Under the pieces are notes generated by a model that worked only from the letters and a program-made list of their open reading frames with translations, was not told the DNA's origin and searched no databases. Made by a program: the position numbers and the translations under genes. A DNA stretch of 64,000 bases from the NCBI RefSeq assembly GCF_004118265.1, contig NZ_SDHW01000003.1, positions 434,001-498,000 on the forward strand. Direction: 5' to 3'. This stretch comes from Lacibacter luteus. Lineage in GTDB: Bacteria > Bacteroidota > Bacteroidia > Chitinophagales > Chitinophagaceae. Below are positions 5,746 through 26,916 of the stretch, one piece after another (within the stretch, counting starts at the first letter, position 1; each line of letters begins with the position of its first letter).

Positions 5746-6492
5746 ATGGGCAAAATAAAATTATCATCAATAAGTACCAAGGCGCCAAAGGGTTTAAACA
5801 AAGCAAAACTAAAAGCGAAAACCGAAAAAATTATTGAACAGCTCGATGAACTGCAGAACAGACTTATTGCAGAAAATAAACATTCGCTGCTGGTAATTAT
5901 ACAAGGTATGGATGCAAGCGGTAAAGATGGTTTGTTGCGTGATGTGTTTGGATCGTTGAATCCTTTAGGTGTTTCGGTAAAATCGTACAAAGCACCAACG
6001 CCGGAAGAATTAAGCCATGATTTTTTATGGCGCATCCATCAGCATGCACCTGCAAAAGGCATGATACAGATTTTTAACCGCAGCCATTACGAAGATATCC
6101 TTATTACCCGTGTGCACGGATGGTGCAACGATGAAACGGCGGTAAAACGAATGAAGGCGATCAACGATTTTGAAGAGTTAATTACAGAGCACAACCATAC
6201 ACATATTCTTAAATTCTACCTGCATGTGTCGCCGGAAGAACAACAGGCCCGATTAAAAGAGCGAGTACATGATCCACGCAAAATGTGGAAGTACAACGAA
6301 AAGGATTTTGAGGAAGCCAAATTGTGGAACAAGTACATGAAGTATTACCAGGATTGTTTTCAGCATTGCAACAAAATACCCTGGCAAGTTATTCCTGCCG
6401 ATCAGAACTGGTATAAAGAGTACGTAGTTGCACAGAAAGTTTACGATACATTGAAATCGCTCAACATGCAGTATCCGGGTCTGAAAAAATAA
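5746..6492 (+). CDS. ppk2: Polyphosphate kinase 2 family protein
   Basis: PPK2 enzymes use polyphosphate to phosphorylate nucleotides (AMP to ADP or ADP to ATP, by subclass). The 248-residue single-domain protein has the Walker A variant GMDASGKDG, the PPK2 lid-region motif FNRSHYEDILITRVH, and the ending PWQVIPADQNWYK. The start is the ATG of MGKIKLSS; an earlier in-frame ATG at 5665 would overlap the divergent EamA gene start and add residues unlike the family. The length fits the one-domain class; class II or III (AMP or AMP/ADP use) cannot be decided by eye. A weak promoter match (TATATTCG at 5722) lies just upstream. Confidence 0.9.
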   Translation: MGKIKLSSISTKAPKGLNKAKLKAKTEKIIEQLDELQNRLIAENKHSLLVIIQGMDASGKDGLLRDVFGSLNPLGVSVKSYKAPTPEELSHDFLWRIHQHAPAKGMIQIFNRSHYEDILITRVHGWCNDETAVKRMKAINDFEELITEHNHTHILKFYLHVSPEEQQARLKERVHDPRKMWKYNEKDFEEAKLWNKYMKYYQDCFQHCNKIPWQVIPADQNWYKEYVVAQKVYDTLKSLNMQYPGLKK

Positions 6493-6588
6493 AGTTTGTA
6501 AATGACGTATTTTTTTACAGATTTGTAATACCCGCCACGTTTAGCAATCAATCTGTTTTATTTATTCATCACAATAAAAACCACAATT

Positions 6589-6966
6589 ATGGGAATGCTC
6601 AAAGAATTTAAAGATTTTGCAATGAAAGGCAATGTAGTTGATTTGGCTGTCGGTGTTATTATCGGCGGAGCTTTCGGCAGTATTGTAAGTTCATTGGTTG
6701 AAGATATTATTACACCTGTTTTATTAAAGCCTGCTTTAAAAGCAGCCGGCGCAGCTAATATTGAAACATGGGCACCGGGTGGTGTTTTACTTGGTAAATT
6801 TATTGCAGCTGTAATTTCGTTTATCGTTATTGCATTTGTTCTATTCCTGATAATAAAAGGAATGAATTCTGCAAAGAAAAAAGAAGAGGCGGCTCCGGCT
6901 CCGCCACCTGCAACACCCGAAGATGTTTTGTTGCTGCGTGAAATTAGAGATGCTTTAAAGAAATAA
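6589..6966 (+). CDS. mscL: Large-conductance mechanosensitive channel
   Basis: MscL is a homopentameric inner-membrane channel that opens under membrane tension during hypo-osmotic shock. The 125-residue protein shows the N-terminal amphipathic helix [27 protein letters not shown] leading into the pore helix M1, the loop, and M2 ([23 protein letters not shown]). It ends with a cytoplasmic bundle carrying a Pro/Ala-rich linker and [15 protein letters not shown]. Length and motif order are normal. It lies about 95 bases after ppk2 and ends on a strong terminator, so it is probably its own transcription unit. Confidence 0.96.
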
Positions 6967-6982
6967 TAAAAACTCTTTTTGT

Positions 6983-7016
6983 AAATGGCAGCAAAGAATT
7001 TTCTTTGCTGCCATTT
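6983..7016 (+). terminator. Intrinsic terminator of mscL
   Basis: A perfect 14-bp stem (AAATGGCAGCAAAG / CTTTGCTGCCATTT) with a 6-base loop is followed by TTTTA. It is one of the strongest hairpins in the window. Confidence 0.9.
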
Positions 7017-7068
7017 TTTATTACTGGTATGGCGCAACATTTGCTGTGCTTGCCGCAAACAAATACTT

Positions 7069-8007
7069 ATGATGAAACAAGTAATGCTTACTGCAATTAT
7101 CGCAATTGGTACAGTAACGTCTTTTGCACAGGATGCTGAAGTAAAACGTTTAAAAGATGAATCGAACAAAACCGTTAAGAAAGAACCCGAACAAAAAGAT
7201 GGCTGGACAAAAGGTGGCGTGTTTAATCTTAACCTAAGCCAGGGGGCAAGTCGTAACTGGGCCGCCGGAGCCGAAAAATTTTCATTCTCTGTAAATGCAT
7301 TGGCCAACACATTTGCTTATTACAAAAAAAGAAGAAATGCATGGGATAACAGTTTGAATGTGCAGTATGGTATTGTAAATGCAACCAGCATTGGTACACG
7401 TAAAAACGATGATCGTATTGATCTGCTTTCACGTTACGGTTACCAGCTGGGCGATACAGCTAAAAGCAGATGGTATCTTTCCGGATTAGTGAACTTACGT
7501 ACACAAATGACAACGGGTTACAACTATACAGTTGAACCAAAAGAAAAGAATTCGAACTTTTTTGCACCTGCCTATCTGTTGGTGTCGCCGGGTATCATGT
7601 ACAAGCCCAATGCAACATTCGATATTTTTCTTTCGCCGGTAACAAGTCGTTGGGTTATTGTAAACGAGGCGAATAAAGATATCCGCAGGCTGTTCAATTT
7701 TACCGATACCACAAAAATGGCCATTAACGAAATAGGTGCATTTTTAACTGCCAATTTAAAAAAAGACCTGGCAAAAAATATCAACCTTACCAGCAGGCTC
7801 GATTTGTTCAGCAATTACAAAAACAACCCGCAGAATATTGATGTGTTCTGGACCAACACACTGGGTTTCAAGGTGAACAAATACATTGGCGTGAGTTATA
7901 ATTTCGACCTGATTTACGATCATGATGTGAAAAATGTAAAAACAGGCGGATTGCTGGGCACACAGCTGAAATCGTTGCTGGGAATCGGCTTTACCGCTAC
8001 ATTTTAG
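7069..8007 (+). CDS. DUF3078 domain outer-membrane-like protein
   Basis: This is a Bacteroidota-specific exported protein of unknown function. The signal peptide MMKQVMLTAIIAIGTVTSFAQ fixes the start at 7069 or 7072; the longer open frame would begin inside the mscL terminator. After a Lys/Glu-rich linker the protein shows DGWTKGGVFNLNLSQGASRNWAAG and then alternating hydrophobic/aromatic strands to a C-terminal Phe (GIGFTATF). This is the look of a small outer-membrane beta-barrel and matches DUF3078. About 312 residues. It lies between mscL and scpA with no clear functional link to either. Confidence 0.8.
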   Translation: MMKQVMLTAIIAIGTVTSFAQDAEVKRLKDESNKTVKKEPEQKDGWTKGGVFNLNLSQGASRNWAAGAEKFSFSVNALANTFAYYKKRRNAWDNSLNVQYGIVNATSIGTRKNDDRIDLLSRYGYQLGDTAKSRWYLSGLVNLRTQMTTGYNYTVEPKEKNSNFFAPAYLLVSPGIMYKPNATFDIFLSPVTSRWVIVNEANKDIRRLFNFTDTTKMAINEIGAFLTANLKKDLAKNINLTSRLDLFSNYKNNPQNIDVFWTNTLGFKVNKYIGVSYNFDLIYDHDVKNVKTGGLLGTQLKSLLGIGFTATF

Positions 8008-8022
8008 TACGGTTTAGTTCCC

Positions 8023-8030
8023 TACATTTG
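8023..8030 (+). promoter_or_regulatory. Bacteroidota -7 promoter element (TACATTTG) for scpA
   Basis: A perfect TAnnTTTG match lies 50 bases before the TTG start of scpA and just before a hairpin at 8032-8059, so the hairpin would form the extreme 5' end of the transcript. Confidence 0.5.
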
Positions 8031-8031
8031 C

Positions 8032-8059
8032 AAGTCCCGAGCCACCAGGTTCGGGACTT
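8032..8059 (+). other. Hairpin between DUF3078 gene and scpA
   Basis: A perfect 9-bp stem (AAGTCCCGA / TCGGGACTT) has a 10-base loop. It has no U-run (GTTCG follows), so it is a poor terminator. A hairpin with the same AGTCCCG / CGGGACT core is at 34772-34799, which suggests a repeated element. Confidence 0.7.
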
Positions 8060-8080
8060 GTTCGTTAAAACAGAAATACT

Positions 8081-8950
8081 TTGCAAACAGAATCATACCA
8101 GATAAAACTCCCGCAGTTCGAAGGTCCGTTCGACTTACTGCTCTTCTTTATTGAACGTGATGAGCTGGATATTTACAATATTCCCATTACACGCATCATT
8201 AAAGACTTTATGGATTACATCCATAAAAGTGAGCAGTTGAACATTGAACTGTCGAGTGAATTTATTTTGTTTATCTCCACACTTATGCGCATTAAAGCAA
8301 AAATGCTGTTGCCACGTAAGGAAGTGGATGATCAGGGTAATGAAATTGACCCACGCCAGGAGCTTGTTGACAAAATTCTTGAATATAAAAAGTTCAAAGA
8401 AGCGAGTGTGGAAATGGCCGAAATGGAAGCCATGCGTATGCTGATGGTGAAGCGGGGTAACATTGCCAAAGAACTGGCAAATATTGGCGAAGAAACCGGC
8501 GAAGGCACCGAAATACAAACCATTACCATGTTTAAACTGATGAAGACGTTTGAACGGGTGATGAAGAAACATCACGAGCGCTTTAATAAACCCGTGCATA
8601 CGGTGGTGCAATACAATTACACCATGGAAGGCAGCCGTGAATACATGTTGGATATGGTAAAGACGGAAAAGACCATGCCATTTGAGAAATTGTTTGATGT
8701 GGTAGAGAACCGCATTCACGCCATCTTCTTATTTCTGTCCTTGCTTGAACTTTCGCAACAACGCTATATGACCTTGCTGGTGGGTGAAGGGAAAAACAAT
8801 TTTATTGTTGAGTGGAACGACGACAGACCTGCTGATATCGACAATGATATTTTTGAGCAGAAGACAGAAACAGAAACTTCATCCGAACAGGGGGCAACAG
8901 ATGAAGAGTCGCCACAAACAGAAAACGATAACGAAACAGAAGAGCAATAA
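8081..8950 (+). CDS. scpA: Segregation and condensation protein A
   Basis: ScpA is the kleisin subunit of the SMC-ScpAB condensin complex that compacts and separates chromosomes. The 289-residue product has the N-terminal family motif FEGPFDLLLFFIERDELDIYNIPI, then IEDFMDYI-like and SSEFILFISTLMRIKAKMLLP. The C-terminal winged helix includes FLFLSLLELSQQRYMTLL. The last 40 residues are an acidic Glu/Asp/Thr tail. An in-frame stop lies 15 bases upstream, so the TTG codon is the only usable start and matches the family N-terminus. scpB and smc are not in the window. Confidence 0.93.
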   Translation: MQTESYQIKLPQFEGPFDLLLFFIERDELDIYNIPITRIIKDFMDYIHKSEQLNIELSSEFILFISTLMRIKAKMLLPRKEVDDQGNEIDPRQELVDKILEYKKFKEASVEMAEMEAMRMLMVKRGNIAKELANIGEETGEGTEIQTITMFKLMKTFERVMKKHHERFNKPVHTVVQYNYTMEGSREYMLDMVKTEKTMPFEKLFDVVENRIHAIFLFLSLLELSQQRYMTLLVGEGKNNFIVEWNDDRPADIDNDIFEQKTETETSSEQGATDEESPQTENDNETEEQ

Positions 8951-8951
8951 G

Positions 8952-8981
8952 AAAACGCCGTATCGATTGATGCGGCGTTTT
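8952..8981. terminator. Terminator between scpA and convergent lipoprotein gene
   Basis: A 13-bp stem (AAAACGCCGTATC / GATGCGGCGTTTT, one G-U pair) with a GATT loop is followed by TTGTTTTT. It lies at the end of scpA and directly before the stop of the leftward gene. Confidence 0.88.
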
Positions 8982-8986
8982 TGTTT

Positions 8987-9580
8987 TTAATCGATTTTGT
9001 AAACTTTTAATTCGAAATTATACCCATTCATGATATAATAATCGTTCAGAAATACCATTTCTAAATTTCCTCCCGGGATAATATCTAAAAGCACGTAGTC
9101 TAAATCTTGTAATGGGCTTGTTTTTGTATCTACAACAATTGAGTCAGCACCAGATGCTATGATAAAACAAGTCGATGTCGAGGAGCTATCACTAAAAAAA
9201 CGAATTGTGTATGGTTTGTGATGTTGGGTGCTGAAAGAAAAAATTGAATCTGTTTCAAATTTAAATTTATTCAAAAGCAACTCGTAGTGCTGGCTTGTAT
9301 TAACAACGTAGCCTAATTCGAGAAAACGTTTCGCTAATAGATTATTTGAATCAACATAACCCATGTCAATAGGATTTGAAATCTCCTGTTTTTTTACATA
9401 AGCATCAATTTCTTTTTCATTTTTTATGAATTGTATATCTGCAAAAGTTCGCCTGAACTCGATATCGCCAATTTGGGAGACATGAATATGTCCAATGTTC
9501 GTTGACTTAGGTTCTTTCCGTTTGCTTCTGCAACTGAAGCAATACAGTAAGAGGGAAAGTATCAGAAATGAGTATTTCAT
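8987..9580 (-). CDS. Putative lipoprotein, unknown function
   Basis: I do not recognise this 197-residue protein. It begins with a short hydrophobic segment (MKYSFLILSLLLYCFSC) whose Cys17 could be lipidated, though the residue at -3 is Cys rather than Leu, so the lipobox is weak. The mature part is rich in Ser, Asp and Phe with alternating strand-like stretches and no known motif. It lies convergent to scpA and downstream of dxs on the same strand, but a terminator separates it from dxs, so it is probably transcribed alone. Its base composition is more AT-rich than that of its neighbours. Confidence 0.6.
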   Translation of the reverse strand: MKYSFLILSLLLYCFSCRSKRKEPKSTNIGHIHVSQIGDIEFRRTFADIQFIKNEKEIDAYVKKQEISNPIDMGYVDSNNLLAKRFLELGYVVNTSQHYELLLNKFKFETDSIFSFSTQHHKPYTIRFFSDSSSTSTCFIIASGADSIVVDTKTSPLQDLDYVLLDIIPGGNLEMVFLNDYYIMNGYNFELKVYKID

Positions 9581-23447: not shown

Positions 23448-25877
23448 TTAGTTTGTTACATAATCTTTTAAATACACACAGGAGTTAAATACCTCGTTAT
23501 AGGTTTTTGTTTGTTTGTAGTTTTTGATCAGCTCCGGAAAATATTTATTCCGTTGTATGTCTTTCGCATACTGCTCATTTGCTTTTTCGTATTGATCGTA
23601 ATCGGGATAGGCATTATAGTCGGGCACTATCATTTGCTTTTGCGAACATTTTGCAGCCATAAATAAACATCTTGCCTGGAAGCTTTTATCTGCAGTTAAT
23701 TCTTTTGCCTTTAAATAATATTGCTCTGCTGCAAAAACACCATAATACTCTTTTTTCCAGGCCTCTTTTTGCGTTAAGCCGGTAAGTCCGTCGTTACCAC
23801 TCCAGCCATATTCCTGCAGCAACCAGCTGTTGCCCCAGTAGCTTGCTTGATACAATCCGTTTGCCAACTGATAAAATGCTTTTGCCTTTTGTTCGTTTGT
23901 TCCGGTTGTACTTTGCTGCACCAGCCCATTCATTTTTTGAACGTACTGCAACTTGTTGTAAACAACAGTGTCCTGTTTGGTAGGTGCATGTGTATCGTAC
24001 AACAGATCGGCAAAAGGGTTTGCAGCAAGGTAGGTTTTGTAAGGGTCTTTTTTATAATAACTGCTGCTAACCTGTTTCAGCCATCGTTCGGCATTGTTCC
24101 AGTTTTGCTCACGCAGGTAAGCAGTGCCGGCAACATCGGCTACTTCATCTTTTGTATAGCTGTTGTTATCGACCATAAATTTTTCCCAGGCTGTTTTTGC
24201 GGAGGAAGTAACGAGCTGGTATAATGTTTCAATCTCTTTTCCTTTTAGTTTAGTGCGCAGATACGATAACGAGCTGTAACTCCAGTAACCATAATCTTCG
24301 TATCCATCGTATTTCACATACATGATCTTATCTGCACAACCCAATGCCAATGCTGCTTTATGTGGTTCGTTTTGTTTTTCGTATTGCACTGCAATAATTT
24401 CCGAAAACAGATTGCGGTAGAATTTCTTCCATTCTTCATCCTGTTTTGCTTTTGTTTCCAGCCATTGAACGGAAGGTAAAATGCCTGCTTCAAATGCAGC
24501 GTCAAGCTTTCCTTTTTGATTGATTTGTACCAACAGGTTGGTGAGCATCCATTGATCTTTTACTTTATCTGTAAGTGGCAATTGTTTTGCCGATTGCAGA
24601 TAAGTAGTTGCCTGTTTTAAATCTTTACTCATGTAGGCGATATATGCCGCAGCAACTTCAAACAAAGCTTTATTTGTAACAGCAGCATTGCCTGCAACAT
24701 TATGGCAGAACTTCATCATTTGTTTTGCCTGCTGTTCGCTTGCAGCATAAAGGCTATCGTAGTTTGGTTTATCAGCATCCCATCCAAACAAACTCCACGA
24801 GTACATGATCTTTTCGCCTTTCAGTTTTTGTATAGATGGATGCAGGTATTTTTCTTCCAGCTTATTTACTTCACGGGTTGTAAGCAGCTCAAGCATTGGA
24901 GACGAAGGATCGAGCTGATAAATACTTTGCAGGTGCAGCAGATCATCGGCTGTGCTGTTCAATGCATAAACAGCAATAACATTTGCTTTCTCTTTATTTG
25001 TTTTGCAGTACTTCAACACGGCTTCTTTTGAAATACCAGGCTCATCTTCGTTGTTTTCGGTACTGAATATAAAACTGATGTAATTACTTCTTCGTTTAAC
25101 AGCATTATCGGCACAGAGTTGAGCAAAGCGGTAAGCAGCTTCTTCCCTTTTGCCTGTACGCAATAATGCACCTGCATACAATGCCTGCGATAAACTATGC
25201 AATTCACTTTTGGTAGTATTGGTTGCTATGTAGCTGTTGTAATAACTGATGCAGTTTTTGTATTGTTCTGTATAATGTGCAAGCCTTGTAACCTGGTAGC
25301 CATAACGTAGTTTAATGAAATCGGTTTTAGCAGCAGTCCATAATTGAATACCGCTTTTAATTAAGCGTTGCATTTTTACACTGTCCCGTGTAAGATCTTC
25401 CCAGGGGTTTTCATCGCCTGTAACAAAAGGCTCTACTTGTTTTGCATACAGTAAATAACCCAACGCTTCAAGGTCTTTCGATTGCATGAACCATTTAGTA
25501 ATGCTGTTTCGTTTTACTGAATCGGCAACGGTAAGCGGTTGTTTCTTTTCAAGATGATTATAGATTGCTGCAAGTTGTTTGTAACTGTACTTCAATACAA
25601 AATCCTGCACCTCTTTTTGAGAAGCTGTATTACCTGTGTAGGCAACCCACTCGGCGCTTGTTACTTCTTTAGTTGAGAGTGGTTCAGCTTCATCATATAA
25701 AAAACGATAACCTGTATAATAAAATGGACGATAGGTTTCATCGGTCTGCAGCTTTTGCGAAAAGAAACTTGTATAGTAATCATATGGGTCTTCGCTTGGT
25801 CCGCAACCAATTAAATTTTGCGGAAAGCAAAGAATGCTACTGCTGATGAAAACGGCTATACAAAGCTTCCAGTTCAT
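23448..25877 (-). CDS. Large putative lipoprotein with helical repeats, unknown function
   Basis: I do not recognise a named family. The start is placed at MNWKLCIAVFISS, where a signal peptide ends in a good lipobox (LIGC, Cys25), giving 809 residues; the longer frame upstream has no signal. After a motif GPSEDPYDYYTSFF the protein is mostly amphipathic helices with repeated Ala/Tyr/Leu/Gln patterns, such as ALYAGALLRTGKREEAAYRFAQL and FYQLANGLYQASYWGNSW, which look like divergent TPR units. Its first 41 bases overlap the end of the upstream lipoprotein gene in another frame, so the two are translationally linked. TPR lipoproteins often act as scaffolds at the outer membrane; that role is inference. 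Confidence 0.78.
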   Translation of the reverse strand: MNWKLCIAVFISSSILCFPQNLIGCGPSEDPYDYYTSFFSQKLQTDETYRPFYYTGYRFLYDEAEPLSTKEVTSAEWVAYTGNTASQKEVQDFVLKYSYKQLAAIYNHLEKKQPLTVADSVKRNSITKWFMQSKDLEALGYLLYAKQVEPFVTGDENPWEDLTRDSVKMQRLIKSGIQLWTAAKTDFIKLRYGYQVTRLAHYTEQYKNCISYYNSYIATNTTKSELHSLSQALYAGALLRTGKREEAAYRFAQLCADNAVKRRSNYISFIFSTENNEDEPGISKEAVLKYCKTNKEKANVIAVYALNSTADDLLHLQSIYQLDPSSPMLELLTTREVNKLEEKYLHPSIQKLKGEKIMYSWSLFGWDADKPNYDSLYAASEQQAKQMMKFCHNVAGNAAVTNKALFEVAAAYIAYMSKDLKQATTYLQSAKQLPLTDKVKDQWMLTNLLVQINQKGKLDAAFEAGILPSVQWLETKAKQDEEWKKFYRNLFSEIIAVQYEKQNEPHKAALALGCADKIMYVKYDGYEDYGYWSYSSLSYLRTKLKGKEIETLYQLVTSSAKTAWEKFMVDNNSYTKDEVADVAGTAYLREQNWNNAERWLKQVSSSYYKKDPYKTYLAANPFADLLYDTHAPTKQDTVVYNKLQYVQKMNGLVQQSTTGTNEQKAKAFYQLANGLYQASYWGNSWLLQEYGWSGNDGLTGLTQKEAWKKEYYGVFAAEQYYLKAKELTADKSFQARCLFMAAKCSQKQMIVPDYNAYPDYDQYEKANEQYAKDIQRNKYFPELIKNYKQTKTYNEVFNSCVYLKDYVTN

Positions 25878-26916
25878 GTGTTGGGTGTTTAGATAAAAGT
25901 AATGGATCGAGATGATATAATAAGATGCGTGTTTGTTGGTTGATGGACGAAAGATGCTTTGAAACATAACCGGCTGTTTCTTTAATAGCGGCACTGCTGC
26001 TTTCTTCATAACGCAATACATCGCCTTTGTAGAATTGAATGTTGCTGATGCTTGTATCAACCAAAAAACGATACCGGTTATTCTGTTTAGTGCAAATGCT
26101 GCTGCTTAAAGTTGACGGGTCAACAGTTTGTACGATTCCTTTAAATTGATTGTTGCGGAACAATACCGACCATTCGAATAAAGGCAGCGCCACATCTAAC
26201 TTTAAAGGATAACTGCTTAAACCGCTGAGATACTTTTTTAACTCCTCCACTTCAATAATGGAATTGCCGGTAGCCGGATTTTTAAGATTGCCCATATTGT
26301 AACACATCAGCAAACCTTTATCAACAGGAGGTATACCTGTTCGGCTGCTGAATTTCACCTGGTGCAAACGTATTGTTGCAGACAGTAAACTGTTTTTAAA
26401 AAGTACGGATGATTGCATCTGGCTCTTTATCTGTTGCAGCAGAAAAAAATAGGCAGCCTTTGTTGCTTGTGTCCAGTCGCAATCGATCTGGAGTTCGCTG
26501 TAATGTTCGGTTGTAAGTTGCTTGCTGATGTTGGTTAGAAGTACAGTAATGTTTTTAGCCAATGAGCGAAGTGCAGCCGAGTCGCTTTGCTGCAATGTTT
26601 CATTAGTAATAAAAACAACAGGCACAATTGCAATGTTTTTATTTTTTAGCTGTACTAATGTTAAGCTGTCTGCTGTTAACCTTGCTACCGGTGCGGAACC
26701 ATTACCATCGCTTGCAACTGTAACATCAAAATATTTTACATACAGTTGCTGCACCTGTAATTGTTGCAAGCTGTTTAACTCAGTGCTGCCGAGTAGCAGT
26801 TTGCTTTTCCAATAATAAAAGCCACGTTCAACAAAACGTTGCGGTTGCTGCCTGCAACTGCTTATAAAAATTAATAAGCAGATAACAGGAATGCAGTAGC
26901 GGCAAACCCGTTTCAT
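25837..26916 (-). CDS. Putative lipoprotein with TIM-barrel glycosidase-like pattern
   Basis: This is an unknown 359-residue lipoprotein: signal MKRVCRYCIPVICLLIFISSC with lipobox ISSC at Cys21. The mature part alternates strands and helices in a way that suggests a TIM barrel. Examples are LYVKYFDV, IAIVPVVFITNETL, LQIDCDWTQ (Asp145 and Asp147), LLSATIRLHQVK, GLLMCYNMGN (about 202-210) and KLDVALPLFEWSVLF. An acidic strand-4 motif followed by a Met-x-Tyr-type strand resembles GH18-like and related glycosidases, but I cannot show a catalytic glutamate, so the activity is unproven. It overlaps the next gene by 41 bases and is divergent from the PhoD-like phosphatase. Confidence 0.72.
   Translation of the reverse strand: MKRVCRYCIPVICLLIFISSCRQQPQRFVERGFYYWKSKLLLGSTELNSLQQLQVQQLYVKYFDVTVASDGNGSAPVARLTADSLTLVQLKNKNIAIVPVVFITNETLQQSDSAALRSLAKNITVLLTNISKQLTTEHYSELQIDCDWTQATKAAYFFLLQQIKSQMQSSVLFKNSLLSATIRLHQVKFSSRTGIPPVDKGLLMCYNMGNLKNPATGNSIIEVEELKKYLSGLSSYPLKLDVALPLFEWSVLFRNNQFKGIVQTVDPSTLSSSICTKQNNRYRFLVDTSISNIQFYKGDVLRYEESSSAAIKETAGYVSKHLSSINQQTRILLYHLDPLLLSKHPTHELEALYSRFHQQ

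Follow-up and report, generated by a model that had tools for sequence, protein, structure and literature searches.

An overlapping gene pair of Bacteroidota encoding a predicted GH18-type barrel without the catalytic glutamate and a predicted TPR-like solenoid

Introduction

Why do two genes for predicted exported proteins stay overlapped by some tens of bases in locus after locus, and what might their products do together? The question is raised by two genes in a 64,000-nucleotide stretch of Lacibacter luteus DNA (assembly GCF_004118265.1, contig NZ_SDHW01000003.1, positions 434,001 to 498,000; hereafter the window). Gene A (25837..26916, minus strand) encodes a 359-residue lipoprotein with the lipobox ISS-C21 and a predicted TIM barrel of the glycoside hydrolase family 18 (GH18) type. 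Gene B (23448..25877, minus strand) encodes an 809-residue protein with a signal sequence and the lipobox LIG-C25, predicted to fold as a nearly all-helical solenoid like those of tetratricopeptide repeat (TPR) proteins. Our tentative answer, held at somewhat short of even chances, is that the products of A and B work as a two-protein module of the envelope in which a TPR-type scaffold holds a GH18-fold glycan hydrolase or glycan-binding protein; the two would probably make up a machine, so far unstudied, for binding or trimming an envelope sugar polymer. The folds, and the arrangement of a barrel with TPR repeats, are already known. Literature searches, which left subscription literature mostly outside, returned no description of the pair, of its breadth or of its altered catalytic signature.

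A long overlap of conserved length

A preliminary description of the window, made from its letters, had reported two leftward genes overlapping by 41 bases in different frames. The overlap was confirmed at 25837..25877 (minus strand), where the end of A lies on the start of B; the B start codon is the ATG at 25877, and GPSEDPYDYYTSFF forms residues 26-39 of the product. The window's own genome contains a single match for A and a single match for B.

Overlap lengths were compared over the 122 loci with one labelled A, one labelled B and a measurable distance between them (ten loci were skipped, and some contigs are present twice among the 122). The B ATG lies 32-71 bases ahead of the end of A in 114 of these loci, with 35 bases in 57, 38 in 20 and 41 in 16, and a common frame relation is seen in 116. 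The constant frame is less informative than the constant length, because long overlaps, although rarer than short ones, are reported to be more commonly found in this phase (PMC10666635). Because both genes are conserved as proteins in other genomes, the overlap is more than chance. Subunits of complexes are reported in the same work to be enriched among gene pairs at distances of -8 to +10, and overlaps of 35 bases fall outside that range (PMC10666635).

Co-occurrence of A and B

How faithfully does one gene accompany the other? Among 59 relatives, A was found in 14 genomes and B in 13, all 13 lying within A's 14. The module is accessory in the window's genus, since A occurs in only 5 of its 14 genomes. 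At the family level (294 genomes) 80 genomes gave a match to A and 71 a match to B, and every one of the 71 also has A. A profile then located B beside A in five of the nine A-only genomes (G103, G134, G143, G149 and G225, the last cut by a contig end) and a re-search found it in a further one (G319), so that B is present for 77 of the 80 A-positive family genomes. The re-search, which covered 12 genomes with a missing or distant B, recovered a full B in seven.

Of the 296 genomes in the phylum-level set, 38 gave a match to A; in at least two of them the match is a fragment (G017, G546). Linkage was checked in 20 regions from 18 of the 38, and A and B are adjacent in 17, including one with an interrupted A (L171, from G476) and one with B split into two frames (L178). 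B lies elsewhere in the genome for L166 (G472, at a contig end) and L173 (G494). The interruption in G476 is genuine; in-frame TAG or TAA codons in other A matches were checked in L059, L066, L067 and L070, where A merely ends. G472 also holds three tandem B matches on a contig other than that of A (C11:4-7039; L308, L315 and L317).

A scan of public bacterial genomes gave at least 593 stretches related to A. Nearly all of the best 80 of these bear names of Bacteroidota, including Chitinophaga, Pedobacter, Sphingobacterium, Mucilaginibacter, Niabella, Arcicella and Larkinella, and together with one IMG/VR contig they make up the 81 contigs examined for linkage. A and B are adjacent in 77, including L225 and L227 (A match at 6001-6990, B-labelled frame at 6677-9508), and form a single open reading frame in one more (L228). 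B lies 4.7 kb downstream of A in L231, with two genes resembling ATP-binding cassette transporters by eye between them, and no B is found near A in L211 and L259; the genomes of all three hold full B genes. The IMG/VR contig (L185, IMGVR_UViG_3300021256_004135), from a viral collection and possibly bacterial DNA, carries an A relative with an adjacent B.

The preliminary description had supposed a fixed partnership, and had staked it on homologues of the two genes not usually being found apart. The 71 of 71 B-positive family genomes that have A and the 114 of 122 pairs that keep the overlap speak for the partnership, and the neighbourhood survey found the genes side by side in 17 of 20 and 77 of 81 cases. 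Distances between A sequences also follow those between B sequences (r 0.82 over 60 pairs; 0 of 2000 permutations), which is expected of any linked genes. In genus g2, the three genomes with matches (G014, G136 and G258) have both the A and the B closest to those of the window, unlinked, and for A and B alike the nearest relatives of these copies are each other.

It is possible, if rather improbable, that A and B merely belong to one operon and are expressed together under a given stress or in a given phase of growth, without touching or acting jointly. Contact between the two proteins is presumed from the pairing of their genes, a few genomes keep A without B, and the overlap is not essential, since the order is reversed (B before A) in three loci (L103, L125 and L129) and other loci are unlinked. 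Against such a loose association, both genes persist unlinked in several lineages and one single-frame fusion of A and B exists.

Gene A: a predicted GH18-type barrel

AlphaFold2, run with an alignment of 49 relatives, predicts A as a beta/alpha barrel (predicted local distance difference test, pLDDT, 95; predicted template modelling score, pTM, 0.90). Foldseek against the PDB places Bacillus SleL first, with an expectation value (E) of 3.3e-11, and GH18 chitinases next; the structural matches also include pseudo-chitinases such as YKL-39, and the C-terminal domain of PgaB (4p7n) stands at rank 42 (E 2.4e-5). VIA-align gives Z scores of 18.6-19.5 over 274-301 residues among the 50 matches listed. 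Gene A is thus predicted to encode a TIM barrel of the GH18 chitinase/SleL type. The preliminary description had guessed a TIM barrel from the pattern around DCDW (residues 145-148) and had named a fold search without a barrel as the outcome that would sink the idea; the predicted structure and both structure comparisons bear the guess out, and the barrels retrieved are those of SleL and GH18.

At the level of sequence alone, support for GH18 is weak. The GH18 model PF00704 is absent from the Pfam matches of the window's A and from the 25 families listed, out of 28, for its 49 relatives at E up to 10. Three hhalign set-ups that aligned A with GH18 domains of relatives yielded E 0.003, 5.1e-5 and 0.001, without an unrelated-profile control, and a further run gave 7.3e-5 to 0.003 for the best alignments.

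A second family, DUF3142 (PF11340), is matched by 11 of the 49 relatives at E up to 10. The best match (the A relative in L097, E 2.9e-5) scores 24.7 bits, below the gathering cut-off of 30. When A relatives were scanned at E up to 0.5, 3 of 20 matched, two of them below 0.001; the Pfam scan of the window's A gave no DUF3142 match. A search with PF11340 over 198 phylum and 14 control genomes returned nothing at E 0.001, so that true DUF3142 members were not reached; when the limit was relaxed to E up to 10, there was no match in one Ignavibacteriales genome, and sub-cut-off matches occurred in 2 of the 14 controls. A full-text search for DUF3142 returned no study of the module within the accessible portions of the texts, and the mention found there is a gene list, in which a cluster numbered after DUF3142 appears as 'hypothetical protein' (PMC10040529), a lead only.

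For the window's own A and B, no family was matched above cut-off in Pfam or NCBIfam, and no PADLOC match was convincing. CDC24_OB3 (0.011) and JetA (0.0035), which appeared in domain scans of the two, were taken as chance. The NCBIfam scan of relatives gave only scattered weak matches, the PDB sequence search nothing credible for A or B, and the plasmid search nothing for the window's A and, for one relative of A and one of B, matches no better than chance.

A conserved pocket without the GH18 glutamate

What does the barrel do, if its family resemblance is so distant? Conservation was assessed over 136 aligned A sequences, with long fused frames excluded, and the conserved residues were placed in or after strands. 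The near-invariant positions are Y34 and W36 in the first strand, D64 in the second, Q143, D145, D147, W148 and T149 in the fourth, T181 and R183 in the fifth, M204 and Y206 in the sixth, and E304. In the acidic, almost unvarying pocket, D145 and Y206 are present in 136 of 136 sequences, D147 and R183 in 135, and E304 in 134. The DCDW codons (26473..26484, minus strand) correspond to the close of the fourth strand, which is the site of DxDxE in GH18 enzymes.

The GH18 catalytic glutamate is absent from all 136 sequences, which do not match the DxxDxDxE motif; by comparison, 28 of the 39 non-empty GH18 domains from relatives carry it, under a pattern that allows N or H at the aspartates. The printed profile alignments, themselves weak, set D147 opposite the GH18 glutamate, and a tryptophan-to-tryptophan register puts T149 there instead. 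The proton donor of GH18 is missing in either register, since residue 147 is D or N in all 136 sequences and position 149 holds T in 132 of them and S in the other four. Three genomes related to the window's organism (G001, G003 and G010) encode GH18-like domains in frames of 1135-1160 residues (L272, L273 and L276), where the motif reads AGINIDFE, AGVNIDFE or QGVNIDFE rather than DGxDxDxE.

A barrel with T149 at the former glutamate position, and no glutamate in the other register, might only bind a glycan. A would then be a chitinase-like lectin used by B as an anchor or sensor, a possibility that we regard as real if on the unlikely side, and the presence of pseudo-chitinases among the structural matches is in line with it. 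On the other hand, the pocket is conserved across the phylum beyond what we would expect of a lectin site, and the printed alignments place D147, not T149, opposite the glutamate. Moreover, a GH18-like barrel without this residue can be active: the PgaB barrel is described as having no equivalent of the second catalytic residue (Glu) and yet cleaving deacetylated poly-N-acetylglucosamine (PNAG) (PMC5933820). For this last reason an active enzyme is rated slightly above a lectin.

Gene B: a predicted helical scaffold

For B, AlphaFold2 predicts a nearly all-helical solenoid (pLDDT 90, pTM 0.84), which agrees with the 809-residue helical-repeat protein of the preliminary description. Foldseek returns generic helical repeats, the best PDB match having E 1.3e-3 and TM-scores staying below 0.3 among the 50 matches listed. 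No Pfam model, TPR included, was matched by the window's B; TPR_2 is matched by 18 of 44 relatives at E up to 1, and the best TPR match in a relative is to TPR_16 (4.5e-8). The earlier statement that neither protein matches a family holds for the window's A and B and is weakened, for their relatives, by the 11 of 49 with sub-cut-off DUF3142 matches and the 18 of 44 with TPR_2.

Four residues, C25, W77, E341 and C800, are invariant in the 44 B sequences; Y141, K146, E149, W159 and R191 are further conserved positions. C25 lies at the expected cleavage point of the signal sequence. Because it is invariant although 21 of the 44 sequences have no lipobox even under a loose pattern, its conservation may reflect a role beyond lipidation, such as in a disulfide.

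Export signals

Lipoboxes were scored by strict and loose patterns, and the tail was taken as the 8 residues after the cysteine. The cysteine of A is aligned in 48 of 49 sequences, among which the lipobox fits the strict pattern in 10 and the loose one in 24, is absent in 12 and cannot be scored in two that are too short; some of the 12 failures are explained in part by start codons that are probably wrong. The tail of A is basic, with a mean of 1.8 K/R and 0.5 D/E per 8 residues (48 sequences). That of B is acidic (mean 0.05 basic residues and 2.4 D/E), and its lipobox is strict in 14, loose in 9 and absent in 21 of 44 sequences.

Surface lipoproteins of Bacteroidota carry an acidic export signal directly after the cysteine (PMC5080379). 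The basic tail of A is unlike this signal, so that A probably faces the periplasm. The location of B could go either way, and B need not be a lipoprotein everywhere, because 21 of 44 sequences have no lipobox of either kind. The earlier placement of the pair at the cell surface thus finds no support in the tail of A or in the many B sequences without a lipobox.

Neighbourhood and fusions

Clustering of the neighbours over 157 loci shows A filling 150 places and B 146, with the next cluster at 19 of 157, and no third gene recurs comparably with the pair in those 157 loci and 77 clustered regions. The larger neighbour clusters resemble, by eye, housekeeping genes in local synteny. In the window the pair is flanked by a divergent PhoD-like gene and, beyond B, a ribonucleotide-reductase-like gene (both named by eye); with the PhoD-like cluster in 5 of 77 regions and the reductase cluster in 11 of 157 loci, these neighbours belong to local synteny.

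In Sphingobacterium multivorum NCTC11343 (L228:5950-9402), A and B occupy one 1151-residue frame, which reflects either a true fusion or an error in the sequence; in four further Sphingobacterium loci (L222, L233, L234 and L240) the two genes are separate and overlap as usual. In G506 (L164:8928-11549, L156:1420-3930), the frame of A begins with a multi-pass membrane segment, some 480 residues long, that resembles, by eye, a glycosyltransferase of fold class C (GT-C), and B follows with an overlap.

The fusion in G506 raises the prospect that A and B are accessories of a pathway for a polysaccharide or a lipid-linked sugar whose genes lie elsewhere, in the manner of PgaB and PgaA, or that they work with GT-C glycosyltransferases. 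Nine loci also have, two genes away, a gene that was judged PMT/ArnT-like by eye on the strength of a single example. These nine loci, however, look like local synteny, the membrane part of the fusion matches nothing in Pfam at E up to 1 and is related to none of the neighbouring proteins retrieved, and the clustered regions contain no pathway gene that returns from genus to genus. An accessory role of this kind therefore seems to us improbable.

A working model and its weight

How, then, could the pair act? A would be a lipoprotein, probably facing the periplasm, whose barrel would bind and probably also cut an amino-sugar glycan, candidate substrates being peptidoglycan and chitin-like or PNAG-like polymers. 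It would use the aspartate pair D145-x-D147 in place of the D-x-E pair of GH18. B, as a TPR-type solenoid, would hold A and control where A sits or how active it is, and the overlap would couple the translation of the two. A bolder extension, which we think doubtful, is that A founds a new glycoside hydrolase family, defined by the GH18 fold with D-x-D and an invariant Arg/Tyr/Glu pocket, and that with its scaffold B it makes up a Bacteroidota-wide, hitherto undescribed machine for remodelling envelope or capsule glycans.

Several observations weigh against the two-protein envelope module. B was not found in G175, where A is intact, in G227, where the A match is a 66-residue stretch, or in G054, with a divergent but intact A; nor did the re-search find it for L183 (G546), where A is truncated or fragmentary. 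In G092 most of the B gene is lost: a remnant of 72 residues that includes the start and the end of B (L097:8865-9083) keeps the 41-base overlap with an A that is retained. The signal sequence of B is inconsistent and the lipobox pattern of A fails in 12 of 48 sequences. In the clustered regions no gene for an exopolysaccharide synthase, a porin or any other envelope component accompanies the pair repeatedly. Finally, the resemblance to GH18 in sequence is weak, and without the catalytic glutamate A may cut nothing.

Bacteroidota are a phylum known for their use of glycans. If A is active, it would represent a further catalytic solution on the GH18 fold; if it is inactive, it would be a dedicated glycan binder. 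Either way, the pair would give this phylum an envelope module on which no study was found, and relatives of A are widespread.

Comparison with known systems

B shares with TPR-repeat proteins an alpha solenoid and, through its relatives, matches to TPR_2 and TPR_16, and differs from them in the lack of any Pfam match for the window's B and in weak Foldseek scores. Towards DUF3142, A is linked by the matches of its relatives at E up to 10 and set apart by their best score, under the curated 30-bit cut-off, and by the window's A, which has no match. With GH18 enzymes (SleL, chitinases) and chi-lectins (YKL-39), A has in common the whole barrel fold, and with GH18 also the D-x-D that ends the fourth strand and a sixth-strand M-x-Y-N resembling the GH18 M-x-Y-D; it departs from them in the missing catalytic glutamate, the absence of PF00704 among its matches and the weak profile-profile scores. 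GH153, the family of the PgaB barrel, which has its catalytic Asp at the D474 position and cleaves deacetylated PNAG, is linked to A only by the fold match to 4p7n.

The biofilm polysaccharide export systems PgaB/PgaA and PelA/PelB differ in that no deacetylase domain is predicted on A, no outer-membrane porin on B, and no synthase gene recurs near the pair in the regions clustered; for these reasons A and B are not placed in the Pga or Pel systems. What they share with them is a GH18-like barrel without the glutamate together with a TPR-type scaffold (PMC5933820). In that work PgaB is described as attaching to PgaA at the latter's TPR domain, with PelA doing likewise with PelB (PMC5933820), and these two partnerships would be the closest working model for how B might hold A.

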